NCBI GenBank assembly: GCA_022616275.1
Contig: JAKEFB010000034.1
Coordinates: 20,312-84,311 of the forward strand
Direction of reading: 5' to 3'
Length of the DNA stretch: 64,000 bases
Source of the DNA: Chloroflexota bacterium
GTDB taxonomy: Bacteria; Chloroflexota; Anaerolineae; Promineifilales; Promineifilaceae
Position numbers and translations under genes: made by a program. The notes under the pieces were generated by a model. The model saw nothing but the letters and a program-made list of their open reading frames with translations. It did no database searches and was not told the DNA's origin. This document shows positions 19-40,559 of this stretch, piece by piece (positions within the stretch are counted from its first letter, which is position 1; each line of letters opens with the position of its first letter).

Positions 19-76
19 CCTGGTGTAGGGGCACGATGGGAGTTCGGCTGCCGAACTCACGTGCCCCTACACCAGG
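19..76. repeat. Nested palindrome at the 3' end of uvrA
   Basis: Outer 17-base arms at 19-35 and 60-76 are perfect inverted copies. An inner hairpin has 8-base arms at 40-47 and 51-58 with a 3-base loop. The stop codon of the uvrA fusion (67-69, minus strand) lies inside the outer arm, so the element overlaps the gene end. There is no T-run, so a classical terminator is unlikely. It resembles a dispersed palindromic repeat. Confidence 0.75.
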
Positions 77-3000
77 ACCGGGCGGAGGAAGCGGCCGGTG
101 TGGCTGGTTTCGATCTGGGCGACGGCTTCGGGGGGGCCTTCGGCGACGATGTAGCCGCCGGCCGCGCCGCCTTCCGGGCCGAGGTCTATCAGCCAGTCGG
201 CGGTCTTGATCACGTCCAGGTTGTGCTCGATGACGATGACGGTGTTGCCGGCGTCTACTAACCTGTGTAGCACGTCGAGCAGCCTCTGGATGTCGGCGAA
301 GTGCAGCCCGGTCGTCGGCTCGTCCAGGATGTAAATCGTCCGGCCGGTGGCTACCCGGCACAGTTCCCGGGCCAGCTTCACCCGCTGCGCCTCGCCGCCG
401 CTCAACGTCGTTGCGCTCTGGCCCAACTTGACGTAGTCCAGACCCACGTCGTGGACCGTCTGCAGGATGCGCTCAATCCGTGGGTAGCCGGCAAAGAAGG
501 CCAGGGCCTCCTGCACGTCCATCTCCAGCACCTCGGCAATGTTCCTGCCCCGGACAGTGATCTCCAGCGTGTGCCGGTTGAAACGCTGCCCCTTGCAGTC
601 CTGGCAGAGCACCCAGACGTCGGGCAGAAAGTGCATCTCAATCTTCTTCTGGCCGTGGCCCTGGCAGGCTTCGCAGCGGCCGCCTTTGGCGTTGAAGCTG
701 AAGCGGCCGGCGGTGTAGCCGCACGCCCTGGCTTCCGGCGTCCCGGCAAAGAGCTGGCGGATGTCGTCGAAGACGCCGACGTAGGTGGCTGGGTTGGAGC
801 GCGGGGTGCGGCCGATGGGGTCCTGGGTGATGTTGATGACTTTGTCCAACTGCTCCAGCCCCTCTACCCGGTCGTGCGGGCCGGGCGTGGCCTGGGCGCC
901 GTGCAGGGAACGGACCAGGGCCGGGTAGAGCGTCTCGGCCACCAGGCTGCTCTTGCCGCTGCCGCTGACGCCGGTGACGCAGGTCAGCACGCCAAGGGGG
1001 AAGCGGGCGTTTATCTGCTTCAGGTTGAACAGCCGCGCGCCGTAGATAGCCAGCCAGCCGGCCGGTTCTCGTCGCTGCCCCTCGTTTGGGGCGGTGATGG
1101 CCAGCTCGCCGCTCAGGTAGCGGCCGGTTAGCGAGCCCGGGTTGGCGGCGATGTCGGCCGGCGTCCCGGCGGCGACCACCTGCCCGCCCAAGACACCCGC
1201 TCCCGGCCCGAAGTCAATCAACCAGTCGGCGGCGCGCATCGTCTCGGCGTCGTGCTCGACTACCAACACAGTGTTGCCTATGTCGCGCAGTTGCAGGAGC
1301 GTATCCAGCAGGTTGCGCTGGTCGCGGGCGTGCAGGCCAATAGACGGCTCGTCCAGGATGTAGAGGACGCCGACCAGGCCGCAGCCGAGCTGGCTGGCCA
1401 GGCGGATGCGCTGCCCTTCACCGCCGGAGAGGGTCGGGGCCGGCCGGTCCAGGGTCAGGTAGTGCAGGCCGACGTTGCAGGTGAAGCCCAACCGGTCGCG
1501 CAACTCCTTGAGCACTTCCCCGGCGATGGCCAGCTTCTCGGCCGGCAACACTCCGCCGAGCGACTCTACCCAGCCCAATGCCTGCTCGATGGTCTGGGCC
1601 ATAACCTGGGGGAAGGTCTTGTCGCCAATGGTGACGGCCCGGGCCTCGGCCGTCAGCCGCTCGCCATGACAGGTCGGGCAGGGCTGCTTGCTCATAAAGC
1701 TGGCATACCAGCGCCGGGTGCCGTCCGACTTGGTCTGGCGGAAGAGCCGGTTGACGTGGTAGACAATGCCCTGGACCACCTGCCGGCTCTCCACCGACCA
1801 GGCGCCGCTGTCCGATTCGGCCGCGTGCCTGAAGTGGATCTTCTCCTCGCCGGAGCCATAGAGCAGCACGTCACGGAACTTCTGCGGCAACTCTTGCCAG
1901 GGCAACTCCAGGTCTACGCCGTAATGGGCAGCAATGGACTGGACATTTTCCAACCAGTTGACACCCTTCTTCTTGCGCAGGTTACCGTACCAGCGCACTG
2001 CCCCGTCCATGATCGAGATGGTTGGGTCCTGGACAATGAGGTCCGGGTCAATCTGCAACTGCGTGCCCAGGCCGTGGCAATCGGGACACATGCCGATGGG
2101 GGAGTTGGCGCTGAAGAGGGCGGCCGTCAATGGCGGCAGAATGGCCTCGCACTGAGGGCAGGCGTTGTGCTGGCTGAGTAACACCTCCTCGCCACCCAGT
2201 TCGACCACCAGCCTGCCCTGGCCGGCCTGCAAGGCCGCTTCGACGGCGTTAATGAGCCGGCCGGCAAACGCTTTCCGGCCCTCGCCGCCACCAGCCGGCA
2301 CTTCTAGTACCACAGGTTTGTAGTCGCTAACTTTAGTTGGCACACCAACTTTAGTGGGCTGGCCAGCCCCCGGAGCCAGCAGCCCGAAGCGCGCCCCACC
2401 CGGCAACAGGGCCAGTTGATCGGCAATCTGCTGGGCGCTCATTGGCTCGATGGCCTGGCCACACTGGGGGCAATGCTGCATGCCGATCCGGGAGAAGAGC
2501 ACCCGCAGGTAGTCTACCACTTCCGTTACCGTGCCGACGGTCGAGCGGGGGTTCTTGCTGACCGTCTTCTGCTCGATGGCCACGGCCGGGCTGAGGCCGC
2601 CGATGAACTCTACTTTGGGCTTCTCCATCTGCTCCAGGTAGCGGCGGACGAAGGGCGACAGGCTCTCCACGTAGCGACGCTGCCCCTCGGCGTAGAGGGT
2701 ATCGAAAGCCAGTGAAGACTTGCCACTGCCGCTGACGCCGGTGAGCACCACCAGCTTGTAACGGGGAATGTGGACGTCAATGTGCTTAAGGTTGTGCTGG
2801 GCCGCGCCACGAACGACGATGGCGGCCGGATCAATAGATTTTTGATGCTTGATTTTTGATTTTAGATTAGCAAAGGGGGTGCTGGTGTGGTGGCCATTGC
2901 TGGCCTGGAAGGCAGCCAGGCGGGTACGGGGGCCGGGCAGGAAGCGGGCCGGTTGGAAGGGGCGGGCGGGCTGGTCGCCGGTCGGAAGCAGGTTCATTAG

Positions 3001-3861
3001 CTTTAGCTTTGACCGGACAGGCATGCTGAGCTGAGGGGTCTCTTCGTAAATGGCGCGTAGCTCGACGAAGGTGGCGTTGCCGCCCTCCATCAGCGCCGCC
3101 AGCCGGTCCAATAGGGCGCGCTCCTCCAGTGTGACCTGATCTTCCTTCTTGACGCCCAACTCCCACCACATATCCCACGGCCCGACCTCGACCTTATTCA
3201 GCGAAGCCAGGTCCTGGAGCAGGCAGGCACGAATCATCGGGAGTCCCCGCCGCCGGACGCTATAGCCAAAGCGCCCCGACCTCATCTCGCCGGACCGAAC
3301 CAACTGCCAGGCCCGGCCGGCGGTAATATACTGCTCCGGCCCCATGTCGTACGTGTCAAATGTAATCTTGTGTTTGGCCCGTTGCCTGTCGTCCAGTTGT
3401 GGGTCCACCAGCACCCAGCGCGCCTGGGCCGCCGACCAGTACTCGGCCACCCAGTGGCCGGCGTGCATCGGCCCAAAATAGCGGGCGAAGCCCATCCGCA
3501 CCCGCGCCGGCAAGCCCTGGTGGCGCAGCAGGGCGCAAAACAATATGGCGAACTCACGACAGTTGCCGCCCATCCGCTCGTCCGGCGGCCGGGCCACTGT
3601 CAGCGGCCGGTCGTCCACTTCGTGTAGCCGGGCTAACATCTGCCACACCGGCCGGAGGTTCGCTTCTCGCCGCTGGACAGTGCTGAGTTCCACGTCGAAG
3701 AGCCGCGCGTCGTAAACGTGCATGACCAATCCCTGCACTACCCGGCACAGCCCCGGGATGTCGGCCGGCAACCCATCCAAGAACTCCGCGTACTCCCGTG
3801 GGTCCGTCATCACCCCCTGCTGTGCGTAATACACCAACGGATCTCTCTGAAAATCAGACAT
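67..3861 (-). CDS. uvrA: Transglutaminase-like domain fused to excinuclease ABC subunit A
   Basis: A 1264-residue protein. Residues about 1-210 are a transglutaminase-like cysteine-protease fold with an apparent triad: Cys101 (GNCREF), His136 ([10 protein letters not shown]), Asp153 (VLVDPQLD). Residues about 347-1264 are a complete UvrA, close to the usual 940-residue length: first Walker [10 protein letters not shown] near 375, CPQCG and later zinc modules, two LSGGE signatures, and both DEPSIGLH and DEPTTGLH Walker B regions. UvrA is the damage-recognition ATPase of nucleotide excision repair, working with UvrB. The start is ATG at 3861 because AGGAGG lies 5 bases upstream; the frame stays open to 3972 but has no ribosome site there. 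The linker at residues 331-344 is encoded by heptamer repeats. The UvrA call is firm. The role of the N-terminal domain is unknown; it could be a protease, a transglutaminase or a binding module. Confidence 0.93.
2840..2867. repeat. Heptamer array inside the uvrA fusion linker
   Basis: Four consecutive 7-base units, TTTTGAT, GCTTGAT, TTTTGAT and TTTAGAT, fill 2840-2867. The AT-rich array sits in GC-rich coding sequence and encodes the basic linker [13 protein letters not shown] between the transglutaminase-like and UvrA parts. Arrays of this type are otherwise intergenic in the window. Confidence 0.8.
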
Positions 3862-3876
3862 ATCTACCTCCTGAAA

Positions 3877-3962
3877 GCAATGAGCAATGAGCGATGAGGT
3901 CTGCAAGTTTGCAAGTATGCGAATGACCTGCCACTTGCATACTTGCCCCTTGCCCCCTGCCC
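3877..3962. repeat. Short tandem repeats in the uvrA / WYL divergent gap
   Basis: The stretch holds GAGCAAT-type heptamers (3877-3898), then GCAAGTAT-like octamers and their inverted counterparts (ACTTGCAT and related, 3903-3962). It lies in the 5' leader region of the uvrA fusion. Confidence 0.65.
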
Positions 3963-3985
3963 GAACCTGCATTCTAACCTCCCAT

Positions 3986-4027
3986 ACCTGACACCTTTTG
4001 TCAGGTTCTGTGGTATCATTGCCTGTT
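3986..4027 (+). promoter_or_regulatory. Operator-like palindrome and -10 box before the WYL gene
   Basis: ACCTGACA (3986-3993) and TGTCAGGT (3999-4006) form a perfect palindrome with a 5-base centre. TATCAT (4014-4019) could be the -10 box, with CTGACA (3988-3993) as a -35 at a long 20-base spacing. The start codon at 4028 is only 8 bases after the -10, so the mRNA would be almost leaderless. The palindrome overlaps the presumed promoter and could be the autoregulatory site of the WYL protein; that role is inferred. Confidence 0.4.
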
Positions 4028-5014
4028 ATGCGGGCCGATCGGTTGCTGTCAATTTTGCTACTCCTGCAAGCCAGGGGCCGGATGACGGCCGGAGAACTGG
4101 CGCAGCGGCTGGAGGTTTCGGAGCGGACGATTTACCGTGACCTGGACGCCCTGAGCACGGCCGGCGTTCCCGTCTATACCGAGCGAGGGCCAAACGGCGG
4201 CTGCGTCCTGGATGAAGGCTACCGGACCGATCTGACCGGCCTGACGGAAAGCGAAGCTGGTTCGCTGCTGGCTTCCCGCTCGGCCGACCCGCTGGCCGAC
4301 CTGGGGCTGGGCAAGTCATTAGAAGGGGCTGTCTTAAAGCTGGCCGCGGCCCTGCCCCGGATGCAGCGCGAGGGGGTGGAGCGGATGCGGCAGCGCATTC
4401 ACCTGGACGCGGCTGGCTGGTTCCAGTTCGAGGAGCCAACGCCGTACCTGCCGACTATTCAGGAAGCGCTGTGGCAGGAGCGCCGGCTGCGGCTGATCTA
4501 CCGCCGGGCCGATGGGGCCTGGGTCAAGCGGCTGGTGGACCCCTACGGGCTGGTGGCCAAGGCCAGCGTCTGGTACCTGGTGGGGGCAATGAACCGCAAG
4601 GTGGCCATTTACCGCATTTCCCGGGTGCAGGAGGCCGAGATGACGGAGAGTCACTTCCAGCGCCCGGCCGACTTCGACCTGGCGACGTTCTGGCAGGGAA
4701 CGTTCCGCCAGTTCGAGGCCAGCCTGGGCGAGTACCGGGCCACGCTGCGCATTGCGCCTGGCTCTGAACCAGCCCTGCAGGCGGCTTTTGGCGAACGCGT
4801 CCACGAGCTGCTGGCCCAGGCCGGCCGGCCGGGCGACCAGGGTCGCTATACCCTATCCGTCACCTTCCAATCGTTCGAGCAGGCCCGCAGCATCCTCCTG
4901 GGCCTGGGGAGCCAGGTGGAAGTGCTGGCCCCGCCAGAGCTGCGCGAGAGCATCGTAGCCCTGGCGGCCGAGGTGGTTGCCTTTTACAGGTTAGGAGTGG
5001 AGAGTGGAGATTAG
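4028..5014 (+). CDS. HTH and WYL-domain transcriptional regulator
   Basis: A 328-residue cytoplasmic DNA-binding regulator. Residues 1-57 are a winged HTH_11 domain with recognition helix SERTIYRDLDAL. The WYL domain is in the middle, with VWYLVG near 180-186, followed by a WCX-like C-terminal part. WYL proteins bind nucleic-acid-type or nucleotide ligands and often control DNA repair or defence genes. It is divergent from the uvrA fusion, with a palindromic operator between them, which makes control of that gene plausible but unproven. ATG 4028 was chosen because MRADRLLSILL is the usual N-terminus; the frame extends to 3998. The last seven residues and the TAG stop come from a heptamer repeat array. 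Confidence 0.88.
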   Translation: MRADRLLSILLLLQARGRMTAGELAQRLEVSERTIYRDLDALSTAGVPVYTERGPNGGCVLDEGYRTDLTGLTESEAGSLLASRSADPLADLGLGKSLEGAVLKLAAALPRMQREGVERMRQRIHLDAAGWFQFEEPTPYLPTIQEALWQERRLRLIYRRADGAWVKRLVDPYGLVAKASVWYLVGAMNRKVAIYRISRVQEAEMTESHFQRPADFDLATFWQGTFRQFEASLGEYRATLRIAPGSEPALQAAFGERVHELLAQAGRPGDQGRYTLSVTFQSFEQARSILLGLGSQVEVLAPPELRESIVALAAEVVAFYRLGVESGD

Positions 5015-5058
5015 AGATTGGAGATTGGTTAATCTCTAATCTCCAATCTCTAATCTCT
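4991..5058. repeat. Inverted heptamer array between the WYL and SDR genes
   Basis: TTAGGAG, TGGAGAG, TGGAGAT, TAGAGAT and TGGAGAT run in tandem from 4991. Inverted units (AATCTCT, AATCTCC) then follow to 5058, so the RNA would fold into a long hairpin. The stop codon of the WYL gene (5012-5014) is inside the fourth unit. Confidence 0.85.
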
Positions 5059-5070
5059 GAAAAGGTCGCT

Positions 5071-5772
5071 ATGGACACGAAAATCGCCGTCGTCACCGGG
5101 GGGAACCGGGGCATTGGGCTGGAGATTTGCCGCCAATTGGGACGGCTGGGCATTCAGGTGATCCTGACGGCGCGGAGTGTGGGCAGGGGGACGGCCGCGG
5201 CCGGGGCATTGCAGGCTGAAGGGTTGCCGGTGCATTTCCACCCCCTGGACGTGGCCGATCAGATGGCCGTGCGCCGGCTGGCCAAAACGCTGGCCGACGA
5301 CTACGGCCGGACCGACATCCTGGTCAACAACGCCGCCGTGTACCTGGATCCAGGACTCTCTATAGCGGAGATGGACCTGGCCCTGGTCCGCCAGACGATG
5401 GAGACGAACTTTTACGGACCATTGCGCCTGTGCCAGATAATCGCGCCCTTAATGCGGCGCAACAGCTACGGCCGGATCGTCAACCTGTCCAGCCAGATGG
5501 GCTCCCTGCGCCACATGGGCGCTGGGGCGCTGGCCTACCGTGTTTCCAAGACTGCCCTGAACGCCCTGACGCGGGTGCTGGCGGCCGAACTGCGGGGCAA
5601 CAATATCCTGGTCAATTCGGTAGACCCGGGCTGGGTGCGGACGGAGATGGGCGGCGACCACGCGCCGCGTTCGGTGGAAGAGGGAGCGGAGACGGCCGTG
5701 TGGCTGGCCACGCTGCCGGACGGCGGGCCGACGGGGAGTTTCTTTAGAGATCGGCGGCCGGTGGAATGGTAA
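5071..5772 (+). CDS. Short-chain dehydrogenase/reductase
   Basis: A 233-residue NAD(P)-dependent oxidoreductase of the classical SDR family. TGGNRGIG at 9-16 is the cofactor loop, VNNAAVY stabilises the central sheet near residue 85, and the catalytic Ser140/141, Tyr156 and Lys160 are present in the YxxxK arrangement. The C-terminus, with GPTGSFFRDRRPVEW, is like plant-type carbonyl reductases. A weak AAAAGG ribosome site lies about 9 bases before ATG 5071. The substrate cannot be inferred. The gene is separated from the WYL gene by a repeat hairpin, so co-transcription is uncertain. Confidence 0.9.
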   Translation: MDTKIAVVTGGNRGIGLEICRQLGRLGIQVILTARSVGRGTAAAGALQAEGLPVHFHPLDVADQMAVRRLAKTLADDYGRTDILVNNAAVYLDPGLSIAEMDLALVRQTMETNFYGPLRLCQIIAPLMRRNSYGRIVNLSSQMGSLRHMGAGALAYRVSKTALNALTRVLAAELRGNNILVNSVDPGWVRTEMGGDHAPRSVEEGAETAVWLATLPDGGPTGSFFRDRRPVEW

Positions 5773-5872
5773 GCCTTGCTCCTATCAGCGATTACACGTA
5801 TTCGATTTGCCGGGCATGCGCAATCTCGCGCTTGCAGCGCAATCGCTCCAAGCGCGAGGTAGCTGTTTCCAC

Positions 5873-6231
5873 TCATTTTCCAGGAAGAGGTGTTATCCGA
5901 ATGCGCCTGTCTTCAACAACGGCAAAGTGGCCAGCCCAATTGGTCTGGCTCTCCAGGGCAGTTACGGCCACACGGGCGACATGGACAGCCGACGGCGCGG
6001 AGATTCTGAAAAGGACAACTCATTCACGGCCGGCAGCCGCGAGTGGAAGGCTAACTCGCCAAAATCCTTGTCAAAAGTGATGAGGATTTGGTTCTCCCGT
6101 TGCGCCCATTCAAGAACTTCTCTATCGCTTCTGCCAGGCGCCTCGGTGCGTACCCAAGCCACATCGTGCCCCCGGGCCCGTAATGCGGCAACCGCTGCTT
6201 CAGGGAAGTTTTCATTCGCCAACAGCAGCAC
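5873..6231 (-). pseudogene. Frameshifted DUF5615 PIN-like toxin
   Basis: The intact start (MLLLANENFPEAAVAALR... LITFDKDFGELAF) is a DUF5615 PIN-like toxin of about 118 residues. After LPAVNE the annotated frame turns into an unrelated tail and stops at 5962. The expected family ending (VLFRISAPSAVHVARVAV, then ESQTNWAGHFAVVED) is present in another frame and runs to TGA at 5873-5875. A one-base deletion near 6020-6035 explains this, and the total length of 359 bases is one short of a multiple of three. It is the partner of the DUF433 gene 4 bases upstream. A sequencing error in a run-poor site is the alternative. Confidence 0.8.
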
Positions 6232-6235
6232 GGAC

Positions 6236-6475
6236 TTAAACCCCTGTTAACTCCAGAGGATAAACTCTCTCAGCCCGCAAGATGGCGCTAGCATAACCCA
6301 GGCAAGCCTGAATGTCTTCTGGCGTCAGGCCGGGATAATTTTGTAGGATTTCCATCTCGCTCCACCCCTGAGCCAACAAATCAACGATAAACTCAACGGC
6401 CAGCCGCGTGCCTTTAATAACAGGTTTGCCCACCAGGATGTTTGGATCAATTACAATACGCTCTTGCCAGTTCAT
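6236..6475 (-). CDS. DUF433 antitoxin
   Basis: A 79-residue protein with the DUF433 pattern: IVIDPNILVGKPVIKGTRLAVEFIVDLLAQGWSE, then LTPEDIQACLGYA. DUF433 proteins are small helix-turn-helix antitoxins usually encoded just before a DUF5615 PIN-like toxin, and that is the order here on the minus strand, with 4 bases between the genes. AAGGAG lies 7 bases before ATG 6475. Its partner carries a frameshift, so the antitoxin may be an orphan in practice. Confidence 0.88.
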   Translation of the reverse strand: MNWQERIVIDPNILVGKPVIKGTRLAVEFIVDLLAQGWSEMEILQNYPGLTPEDIQACLGYASAILRAERVYPLELTGV

Positions 6476-6697
6476 CCAGAAACTCCTTACACCAGCAGAT
6501 CATATAACCCATGTGCTGGCCTCTAATGTTTTCGCTGAGTCTACCTGATAATGCTCTACCTTCACAACCAACATTGCTCTTTCCTTGTCAGGCTTATTGT
6601 ACAGGATTGCCGTCCAACAACAATTGGCTGCTGTCAACTCCGGCAATCGTTCGAAAGCGTCAAGTCTTTTGACAAAAATTGGAGAGATTAAAGCGGT

Positions 6698-38315: not shown

Positions 38316-40559
38316 TTACTTGATGCGTGTTCTACTTTGCATTGCGCAACCCTGACAGGGAGTGAGGAGTGTTGGAAAGAAAAGAGCGCGACGCAAGTCG
38401 CGCTCAGTAGATAGAGGCGGAGAGGGCGTTACAATATGGGCTGCAAGCACGCCCCAGTGTGGGAGCAGGTAGAGGGTACGGCCGGTGACGCGCCGTCCCA
38501 GTTCTTTGGACAGCTTCACGCGCTGCGCCTCGCCGCCGGAAAGTGTGGTGGCTGGCTGGCCGAGCTGCAAATAACCCAATCCGACATCAACCATCACTTG
38601 CAGGCGAGACGCGGCAGCAGGGACATCCTTGAAAAGCGCTAACGCTTCCTCGATAGTCAGCTCAAGCACCTGAGCAATATCTTGATCGCGGTATTTAACC
38701 GCCAGCGTTTCCGGCTTGAAGCGGCGACCTCGGCAGGCCGGGCAGGTTACTTCCACATCGGGCAGGAAGTGCATTTTCACCGTCAATGTTCCCGCTCCCT
38801 GGCAGCGTTCGCAGCGCCCGCCAGGCACATTGAACGAGAAATGGCGGGCCGCCATCTTGCGCCGGCGCGCATCGGGTGTTGCGGCGAAGGCTTCACGGAT
38901 AGCGGTGAAAGTGTCGGAGTAGGTGGCGGCATTGGAGCGCGGAATACGTCTGATGTGCTCCTGGTTGATAGTGATGATTTTGTCGAAGTTTTCCCAGCCC
39001 TCAATCGTCTCATGCAAGCCGGGCATCTCGCTTGCTCCGTAGAAGTGCTGGCGGCCTGCTTTGTCAAGAATGTCGAAGACCAGCGAAGATTTCCCTGATC
39101 CCGATACCCCCGTCACCGCCACCAGCAGGCCCAGCGGCAGGTGTACTGTGACGTTTTGGAGGTTGTGTTCACGAGCGCCATGGATCGTGAGCGTTTTCCC
39201 GTTGGGCGTTCGGCGCTGGTGTGGCAGGGGTATACTCATCCGGCCAGCAAGAAAGGCGCCGGTAAGCGTAACCGGCATTTGAGCGATTTCGGCAGGTGTC
39301 CCAGTGGCGACAATCTGCCCGCCCTGTTTCCCGGCTCCGGGGCCAAAATCCACCACGTAATCCGCAGCGCCGATCAATTCAAGATCGTGTTCAACAACGA
39401 GAATGGTATTACCCAGGTCACGCAGGCGGCGCAAAAAGCCAATCAAGCGGTGGGTATCGCGTGTGTGCAAGCCAATCGTCGGCTCATCGAAAACATACAG
39501 CACCCCACTCAGACCCGATCCGAGCAGAGAGGCCATCCGCAGCCGCTGCGCTTCCCCGGCGGACAGCGTTGGTGAGGCCCGGTCAAGCGTCAGGTAGTCC
39601 ACACCAACCTCGATCACACGCCTGACCCGCTCTTGCAGATCGTCCAGAATGGGTCTGGCGATGATCATCTCCTCGTCATTCAATGCAGTGGGCAGTTTGT
39701 CCAGCCAGTCCGCCAGATCATTTAACGGCCGTTGTGAGATCGCGATGATGGTCCGCCCCGCCACCGTCACCGCGCGGCTTTCGGCCCGCAGGCGTGTTCC
39801 GCCGCAGTCGGGGCAGGTTTGCTTCACGAGGAACTCGTCAAGTTTCTGGAGGTAGTCTGCATCGTGAATGTGCTCAGCGTAGCGGCGCAGCAGGGTACTG
39901 GCAATGCCCTCAAAACGGCCCTGACGGACGGTGGTGGGTGGCTCAATCTGCGGAAAATGCTGCCGGAACTGCGGACTATCCACACCGAAAAAGAGCAGGT
40001 CGCGCTGGACTGGCGTATAGTCCTTGACAGGCAGCGCCGGATCGAAGTCGAAACCGTAACGAAGTCCAGCCGTTCGCAGGGTTTCTGTGTGGCGCCGTAT
40101 GGTGTAGGGGTCCCACCCGTAAACGGCCCCATCTACAATGCTCATTTCTTCATTCACGAGGCGCTTCAGGTTGGCACGGTGAACCGTGCCCAAGCCGGTA
40201 CAGGTTGGGCAAGCGCCCGCCGGTTTGTTGAACGAAAAGTTTGCCATGCCGATCTCTGGCATTGACGCACCGCAGTGCGGGCAATGGACAGAGGATTCCG
40301 TTCCAGGGAAATCGCTGCCGTTGCCACTGGCCCAATCAATGGGAGAGTCATCATATGGCGGTGGAACATCCTTTCCACAAGCAGGACACAAACGGTATCC
40401 CAGGCGGGCGAAAAGCACACGCAAGTAGGTGTAGATCTCCGTCGCCGTTCCCACCGTCGAGCGCGGGCTGTGATTGGTTAGTTGTTGATCGATGCTGATA
40501 GAGGGTGATAACCCTGTAATGGAATCGACGGGCGGTTTGGTGAGGCCAAACGTTACCAA
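38316..40559 (-). CDS. UvrA-like ATPase remnant, truncated at both ends
   Basis: An open 747-codon frame, probably a pseudogene. It begins inside the first ATPase domain: KPPVDSITGLSPSISIDQQ is normal UvrA sequence, but the roughly 110 preceding residues with the first Walker A are missing. The second ATPase has GVSGSGKSS and [16 protein letters not shown] but stops matching after RTLYLL, where DEPTTGLH should follow. The remaining tail reads through a terminator hairpin (38384-38405). It belongs to the short UvrA group often linked to drug resistance or stress. TTG 40559 directly follows the MerR stop. GGCCGG words are rarer here, in keeping with transfer. Confidence 0.78.
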   Translation of the reverse strand: MVTFGLTKPPVDSITGLSPSISIDQQLTNHSPRSTVGTATEIYTYLRVLFARLGYRLCPACGKDVPPPYDDSPIDWASGNGSDFPGTESSVHCPHCGASMPEIGMANFSFNKPAGACPTCTGLGTVHRANLKRLVNEEMSIVDGAVYGWDPYTIRRHTETLRTAGLRYGFDFDPALPVKDYTPVQRDLLFFGVDSPQFRQHFPQIEPPTTVRQGRFEGIASTLLRRYAEHIHDADYLQKLDEFLVKQTCPDCGGTRLRAESRAVTVAGRTIIAISQRPLNDLADWLDKLPTALNDEEMIIARPILDDLQERVRRVIEVGVDYLTLDRASPTLSAGEAQRLRMASLLGSGLSGVLYVFDEPTIGLHTRDTHRLIGFLRRLRDLGNTILVVEHDLELIGAADYVVDFGPGAGKQGGQIVATGTPAEIAQMPVTLTGAFLAGRMSIPLPHQRRTPNGKTLTIHGAREHNLQNVTVHLPLGLLVAVTGVSGSGKSSLVFDILDKAGRQHFYGASEMPGLHETIEGWENFDKIITINQEHIRRIPRSNAATYSDTFTAIREAFAATPDARRRKMAARHFSFNVPGGRCERCQGAGTLTVKMHFLPDVEVTCPACRGRRFKPETLAVKYRDQDIAQVLELTIEEALALFKDVPAAASRLQVMVDVGLGYLQLGQPATTLSGGEAQRVKLSKELGRRVTGRTLYLLPHWGVLAAHIVTPSPPLSTERDLRRALFFPTLLTPCQGCAMQSRTRIK
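38384..38405 (-). terminator. Terminator hairpin inside the uvrA-like frame
   Basis: On the minus strand GAGCGCGAC (38397-38405) pairs with GTCGCGCTC (38384-38392), followed by TTTTCTTTCC. Its position inside the open frame shows the last 20-30 codons are not native coding sequence. Confidence 0.75.

Follow-up and report, generated by a model that had tools for sequence, protein, structure and literature searches.

UvrA, the much-studied damage sensor of bacteria, is unrelated to the eukaryotic protein XPC. According to a survey of papain-like proteinases (PMC10318531), XPC/Rad4 contains a papain-like or transglutaminase (TG)-fold domain which is catalytically inactive and forms part of the eukaryotic excision-repair damage sensor. 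A second source (PMC10192343) describes Ecm16 and UvrA2, UvrA-like proteins devoid of the UvrB-binding domain as well as of zinc module 1. A literature search whose reach took in few subscription journals returned no enzyme domain fused to UvrA. Here we describe a gene that joins a TG-like domain to a UvrA paralog, known parts in a new combination, in a 64,000-nucleotide stretch (hereafter the window) of contig JAKEFB010000034.1 from a Chloroflexota bacterium (GCA_022616275.1).

The original prediction had placed this fusion at positions 67-3861. The gene indeed lies there, on the minus strand, as a single frame of 1,264 codons plus a stop (start ATG at 3859-3861, stop at 67-69), and its translation is free of internal stops; a stop codon or frameshift separating the halves was looked for, and none was found in frame. 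The matches to Pfam and NCBIfam models, along with the recurrence of the same architecture in two relatives from the same family (genomes G047 and G044), uphold the claim of a TG-UvrA fusion, which is a real gene in the window genome. As these two relatives carry the same fusion, it is an inherited one, and chance or an error of assembly is an unlikely source.

The N-terminal half is matched by Pfam Transglut_core (PF01841) at residues 99-154, with 44.0 bits against a cut-off of 23. The catalytic set Cys101-His136-Asp153 occurs in the order typical of the family and at the positions predicted at the outset, and all three residues are also kept in G047 and G044. The boundary of the domain, initially drawn at residue 210, was wrong: the family alignment and the AlphaFold2 model extend the TG unit to residues 1-285. 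The predicted structure and structure comparisons place it in the transglutaminase/papain-like fold, which it shares, together with the ordered Cys-His-Asp set, with members of the transglutaminase-like superfamily such as 3isr, TgpA (6g49), transglutaminases 2 and 3 and factor XIII. It is set apart from these by belonging to a family whose members span about 285 residues and have N- and C-terminal parts of their own, and by the low sequence identity it shares with known structures (13% with 3isr in Foldseek, 15% with 1l9n in VIA-align). Yeast PNGase emerges as a weak Foldseek match at ranks 38 and 44, and four members of the TG family, which is widespread yet poorly annotated, recovered no NCBIfam model at E-values up to 0.01. 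This half is a TG-like domain of the cysteine-hydrolase fold whose Cys-His-Asp set is intact. Membership in the Rad4 family was considered and rejected, as PF03835 is not among the 21 Pfam families matched at E-values up to 0.1. The fusion resembles XPC/Rad4 in the physical placement of a TG-fold domain within an excision-repair damage sensor; however, with no Rad4 Pfam match and with catalytic residues retained, the likeness is offered as a parallel and not as a claim of homology.

The C-terminal half scores above the cut-offs of both UvrA models, namely NF001503 (1259.5 bits versus 1147) and TIGR00630 (1202.7 bits versus 729.8). It contains two ATP-binding cassette (ABC) modules, in each of which the Walker A, signature and Walker B motifs were found, retains both cysteine pairs of zinc module 1, and carries the DNA-binding insertion domain PF17755 (88.3 bits versus 23.2). 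These features are common to UvrA at large, from which the fusion differs in the added N-terminal TG unit and linker, in being a paralog that exists beside a canonical copy, and in the absence of an exact SOS-like box. Besides the fusion, the window genome encodes a canonical UvrA (C308, a 967-residue frame), one UvrB, and two further shorter UvrA-like frames of 747 residues (in the window) and 785 residues. G047 likewise has a separate canonical-type UvrA, as does G044, where it is cut by its contig. The fused UvrA falls within a clade of second-UvrA paralogs (b), whose unfused members are found in genera g23, g2, g19, g5 and g22; over the C-terminal query part, unfused b paralogs are 74-75% identical to the fused UvrA and canonical versions about 58-62%. 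One unfused paralog (L182 of G035, 3480-6588) is split over two overlapping frames of 543 and 527 residues, due to either a frameshift or an assembly error. The 747-residue UvrA-like frame in the window (38460-40286, minus strand) lacks the UvrB-interaction region and groups with UvrA-like frames from two relatives, G025x and G043x.

The original prediction of a full-length UvrA is not supported as it stood: it holds in outline, but the UvrB-interaction domain is unrecognizable as such in the window copy. Between its two flanking motifs the window protein has 37 residues; the corresponding spacing is 66-68 residues in the 15 rows of the same clade (two of them fused and 13 unfused) and 72 in five canonical UvrA rows, and the motifs do not occur in the remaining four rows, which are UvrA-like frames of other kinds. 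The domain is thus 29-31 residues shorter than in the same-clade rows, and the stretch that remains aligns with little similarity to its relatives. The UvrA_inter model (PF17760) yields 14.8 bits, below its cut-off of 23.3, compared with 112.3 and 113.5 bits in the two fused relatives, 104.6 and 106.9 in unfused paralogs, and 124.9 in the canonical UvrA of the same genome. As a consequence of this sub-threshold score we classify the window protein as UvrA-like and not as a working UvrA. The pattern suggests that hand-over to UvrB has probably been lost in the window lineage. Absence of the domain would still allow a functional DNA-binding ATPase, given that Ecm16 and UvrA2 also lack the UvrB-binding domain and presumably dispense with UvrB hand-over. 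Nevertheless, the window copy does not belong to the UvrA2/Ecm16 group: it keeps the zinc-module-1 cysteine pairs and branches among b paralogs that possess the dock. A structural model of the UvrA half built from a three-row alignment had a mean predicted local distance difference test (pLDDT) score of 35.2 and was set aside.

Table 1. Coordinates of the fusion gene and its component features in the window.
Feature	Position	Strand	Evidence
Fusion gene: TG-like domain, linker and UvrA paralog	67..3861	-	Translation; Pfam and NCBIfam matches; matching architecture in G047 and G044
Ribosome-binding-site stretch with AGGAGG, five bases 5' of the fusion ATG	3862..3875	-	
TG-like unit, residues 1-285	3007..3861	-	Family alignment; AlphaFold2 model
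Codon of Cys101, predicted nucleophile	3559..3561	-	Invariant in 59 TG sequences
Codon of His136	3454..3456	-	Invariant in 59 TG sequences
Codon of Asp153	3403..3405	-	Conserved in 90% or more of 59 TG sequences
Linker, residues 286-342 (57 residues), predicted disordered; A/T-rich patch with a near-duplicated word	2836..3006	-	pLDDT; 16-mer count; third-position G+C
ATT codon 343, at the site of the ATG start of unfused UvrA paralogs	2833..2835	-	Alignment with unfused copies
UvrA-like half (residues 343-1264) with the two ABC modules, the DNA-binding insertion domain and the cysteine pairs of the zinc module	70..2835	-	
Shortened, diverged core of the UvrB-interaction domain, residues 498-528	2278..2370	-	Motif spacing; PF17760 score

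Relatives of the TG half were detected in 11 of 53 genomes of the family (E-values up to 1e-10, with the G047 version as query), in three of which, namely the window genome, G047 and G044, the TG domain lies in a frame of 1,286-1,354 residues that continues into UvrA. Samples of the class (TG match in 55 of 397 genomes) and the phylum (33 of 400), whose matches do not include G047 and G044, contained a TG frame longer than 521 residues in the window genome only. A further scan using one genome per species, which is limited to genes bearing either of two peptide patterns, yielded 66 TG loci; the TG domain was re-found at 65 of these, with UvrA in the same frame solely at the two belonging to the relatives (L086 and L092). 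No UvrA frame was seen near the TG gene at any of the 63 unfused loci within the stretches fetched, several of which are short contigs, nor did the two halves appear there as separate adjacent genes. Hence, the rarity proposed at the outset held across the class, phylum and per-species samples, as no fusion beyond those of the two relatives surfaced among their TG matches.

The three fused TG halves form a single clade (support 100/91; recovered in 100% of 200 bootstrap trees of 75 TG rows), and the UvrA tree (25 rows) groups the three fused UvrA halves at 83/98, or at 90/97 upon removal of four far rows. Taken together, the two trees favor a single origin of the fusion. Two independent fusions, left unrejected by the UvrA tree on its own, are at odds with the TG tree, which unites the three fused TGs. 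The fusion most likely arose once and was then inherited by two genera of one Chloroflexota family, as far as the phylogenies indicate.

Certain traces of the joining event appear to be preserved in and around the linker. Residues 295-345 have pLDDT values below 50 in the AlphaFold2 model, and the third-position G+C content of the linker is 0.672, while the halves on either side of it have 0.811 and 0.859. In unfused b paralogs the N-terminus reads MEPxxIxVRGAQQHN or near it, and no ATG, GTG or TTG occurs in frame within codons 290-370 of the fusion. ATT, the codon found at the former start site, is rare as a start codon. The 61-codon linkers of G047 and G044 can be aligned with neither gaps nor stops; the proportions of synonymous and nonsynonymous differences (pS and pN) are 0.51 and 0.19 and the ratio of nonsynonymous to synonymous substitution (dN/dS) is 0.249, so the linker is translated and moderately constrained in these two genomes. 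Between the same genomes dN/dS is 0.048 for the UvrA half; for the TG half silent sites are saturated, with a pN of 0.107. The original description of the linker as repeat-derived is reduced to a weak hint, comprising the A/T-rich patch, its near-duplicated word, and a 16-mer with two occurrences in the 8.5-Mb genome, one of them being that of the window itself, against 0 for the reversed control. With so few copies, an origin of the linker from a mobile repeat was rejected, and the same explanation for the altered UvrB-interaction stretch was dropped as well, an idealized 14-mer (not the exact letters of the window) having no matches in the genome.

The fused and unfused paralogs also differ in their upstream regions. 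Among the 14 unfused b loci (L180-L193, from 13 genomes), all but the one in G043, hence 13, have an exact GAAC-N4-GTTC palindrome, an SOS-box-like element with the LexA-site consensus, no more than 150 nt from the start; it stands 27-93 nt 5' of the ATG. Controls contained it rarely, in 2 of 79 other ORFs (open reading frames) of the same loci and 1 of 76 stand-alone TG hits. Among canonical UvrA genes it is exact in two of four (G047 and G044), present with one mismatch in the window genome and absent in G024. By contrast, none of the three fused genes has an exact palindrome within 400 nt upstream. Given the ATT in place of ATG, and a box at 13 of 14 unfused versus 0 of 3 fused loci, it seems that the fusion removed the UvrA paralog from SOS control and placed it behind the promoter of the TG gene. 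We do not propose SOS control of the fusion on the basis of a one-mismatch palindrome 113 nt 5' of its ATG, as about 0.15 such sites are expected by chance per 400 nt. In this family, a spare UvrA that is induced by DNA damage may be widespread.

Gene neighborhoods offered no conserved hint to the function of the TG domain. Of the 116 nearest ORFs of stand-alone TG genes that were listed, 109 were scanned (the seven dropped were mostly far off or between two TG genes; five loci, two fused and three near copies, are outside the set), and no Pfam family recurred in more than 3 of the 109, nor did any neighbor point to repair. These ORFs were chosen mechanically, and hence some may not be genes. 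One Dehalococcoidia genome has two adjoining TG-family genes (L100, 4950-7288). Defense-system models of PADLOC were not matched by the TG part at E-values up to 0.001. The whole fusion matches 12 of them, all within the UvrA part (best mad3 and mad8), as expected of an ABC ATPase, and a role as a defense system was therefore discarded. In the window, a divergent HTH-WYL-WCX regulator adjoins the fusion (3998-5014, plus strand); a study on WYL regulators (PMC10693628) assigns them a role in the DNA damage responses of some bacteria. No HTH-WYL-WCX-like ORF was present near the G047 and G044 fusions in the stretches compared. At 5962-6475 of the window, on the minus strand, DUF5615 and DUF433 genes lie next to each other, a pair that resembles a toxin-antitoxin module.

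These observations are consistent with the fusion being a tethered enzyme, in which a TG-fold hydrolase or transferase is carried to DNA by a UvrA-like ATPase, a tentative reading to which we assign a probability of about 0.38. Under this proposal the UvrA half would form an ABC ATPase dimer that still scans for distorted or adducted DNA and clamps it, thereby bringing the TG domains to the site on flexible tethers, where they might act on a protein substrate by peptide-bond cleavage, deamidation or acyl transfer. A protein trapped on the DNA, or a partner that binds close to it, would be a candidate substrate. In the window lineage, with UvrB hand-over probably lost, the fusion would operate alongside the excision repair served by the separate UvrA and UvrB. 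A narrower version, quite unlikely in our estimate, is a DNA-guided cysteine hydrolase, wherein a UvrA-like ATPase outside the UvrB pathway would bear a live TG domain that trims or modifies protein at distorted or protein-blocked DNA.

Several observations weigh against a tethered enzyme. The fold match reaches the superfamily level only and leaves the type of TG reaction unspecified; the fusion is rare, being present in 3 of 53 family genomes from two genera; and stand-alone TG genes lack a recurrent neighbor. Since the fused G047 and G044 versions keep the UvrB-interaction domain, independence from UvrB is not general to the fusion. The branches leading to the fused UvrAs are long (0.53 to the window copy, 0.66 along the stem shared by G047 and G044), which could reflect relaxed constraint, and the UvrA tree by itself does not reject separate origins in the approximately unbiased test (p-AU 0.44 and 0.21). 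Saturation of silent sites between the UvrA halves of the window and G047 precludes an estimate of selection, and it is possible that a separate UvrA product is made from an internal start, either ATG 289 or the ATT.

The competing explanations draw on the same evidence. The main rival, somewhat unlikely in our view, is a near-neutral fusion of neighboring genes, by which a stand-alone-type TG and a spare UvrA would each retain an old, unrelated job within one protein. The window linker does resemble former spacer DNA, with its A/T-rich patch and ATT in place of ATG, and neither a recurrent repair neighbor nor, in the stretches fetched at 63 stand-alone loci, a UvrA frame accompanies the TG genes; yet the fusion has been kept through deep divergence (TG halves 41-43% and UvrA halves 59-61% identical among the fused genes), and comparison of G047 with G044 shows constraint on its linker. 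Less probable still would be a non-catalytic adaptor, whereby the TG domain might serve as a DNA- or protein-binding module that aids the targeting of UvrA, in the manner of the inactive papain-like domain of XPC/Rad4 in excision repair. Here XPC/Rad4 (PMC10318531) supplies a precedent, being a damage sensor of excision repair that contains a TG-fold domain. That domain, however, is inactive, whereas all three catalytic residues persist in the fusions of the window genome, G047 and G044, with Cys and His invariant in 59 sequences, and the Rad4 family PF03835 is missing from the Pfam matches. The shortened and diverged UvrB-interaction region, the long branch and the presence of a canonical UvrA might instead signify decay, the window fusion being a degenerating second UvrA, without a UvrB-interaction core, on its way to becoming a pseudogene. 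We regard this as distinctly improbable in light of 1,264 stop-free codons, intact ATPase motifs, zinc-cysteine pairs and TG triad, and high third-position G+C in both halves. Finally, the fragmented assembly (309 contigs, contamination 5.5) raises the prospect of an artefact of assembly or binning that joined unrelated genes. This is scarcely credible, as contigs of two other genomes, albeit perhaps from one project, share the architecture with homologous halves, and both window halves group with those of G047 and G044 in the trees.

If the TG half does work as an enzyme at DNA, it would provide bacteria with a damage sensor that has an enzyme attached, and an active TG domain joined to the bacterial sensor would, if true, constitute a striking parallel to the inactive TG fold of XPC/Rad4. 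The narrower possibility of a DNA-guided hydrolase would, were it to hold, represent a bacterial route for dealing with DNA-protein crosslinks and an active counterpart of that inactive fold. The tethered-enzyme reading, if correct, would also furnish a functional lead for the stand-alone TG family, which is found in several phyla and displays no recurrent neighborhood in the loci examined.
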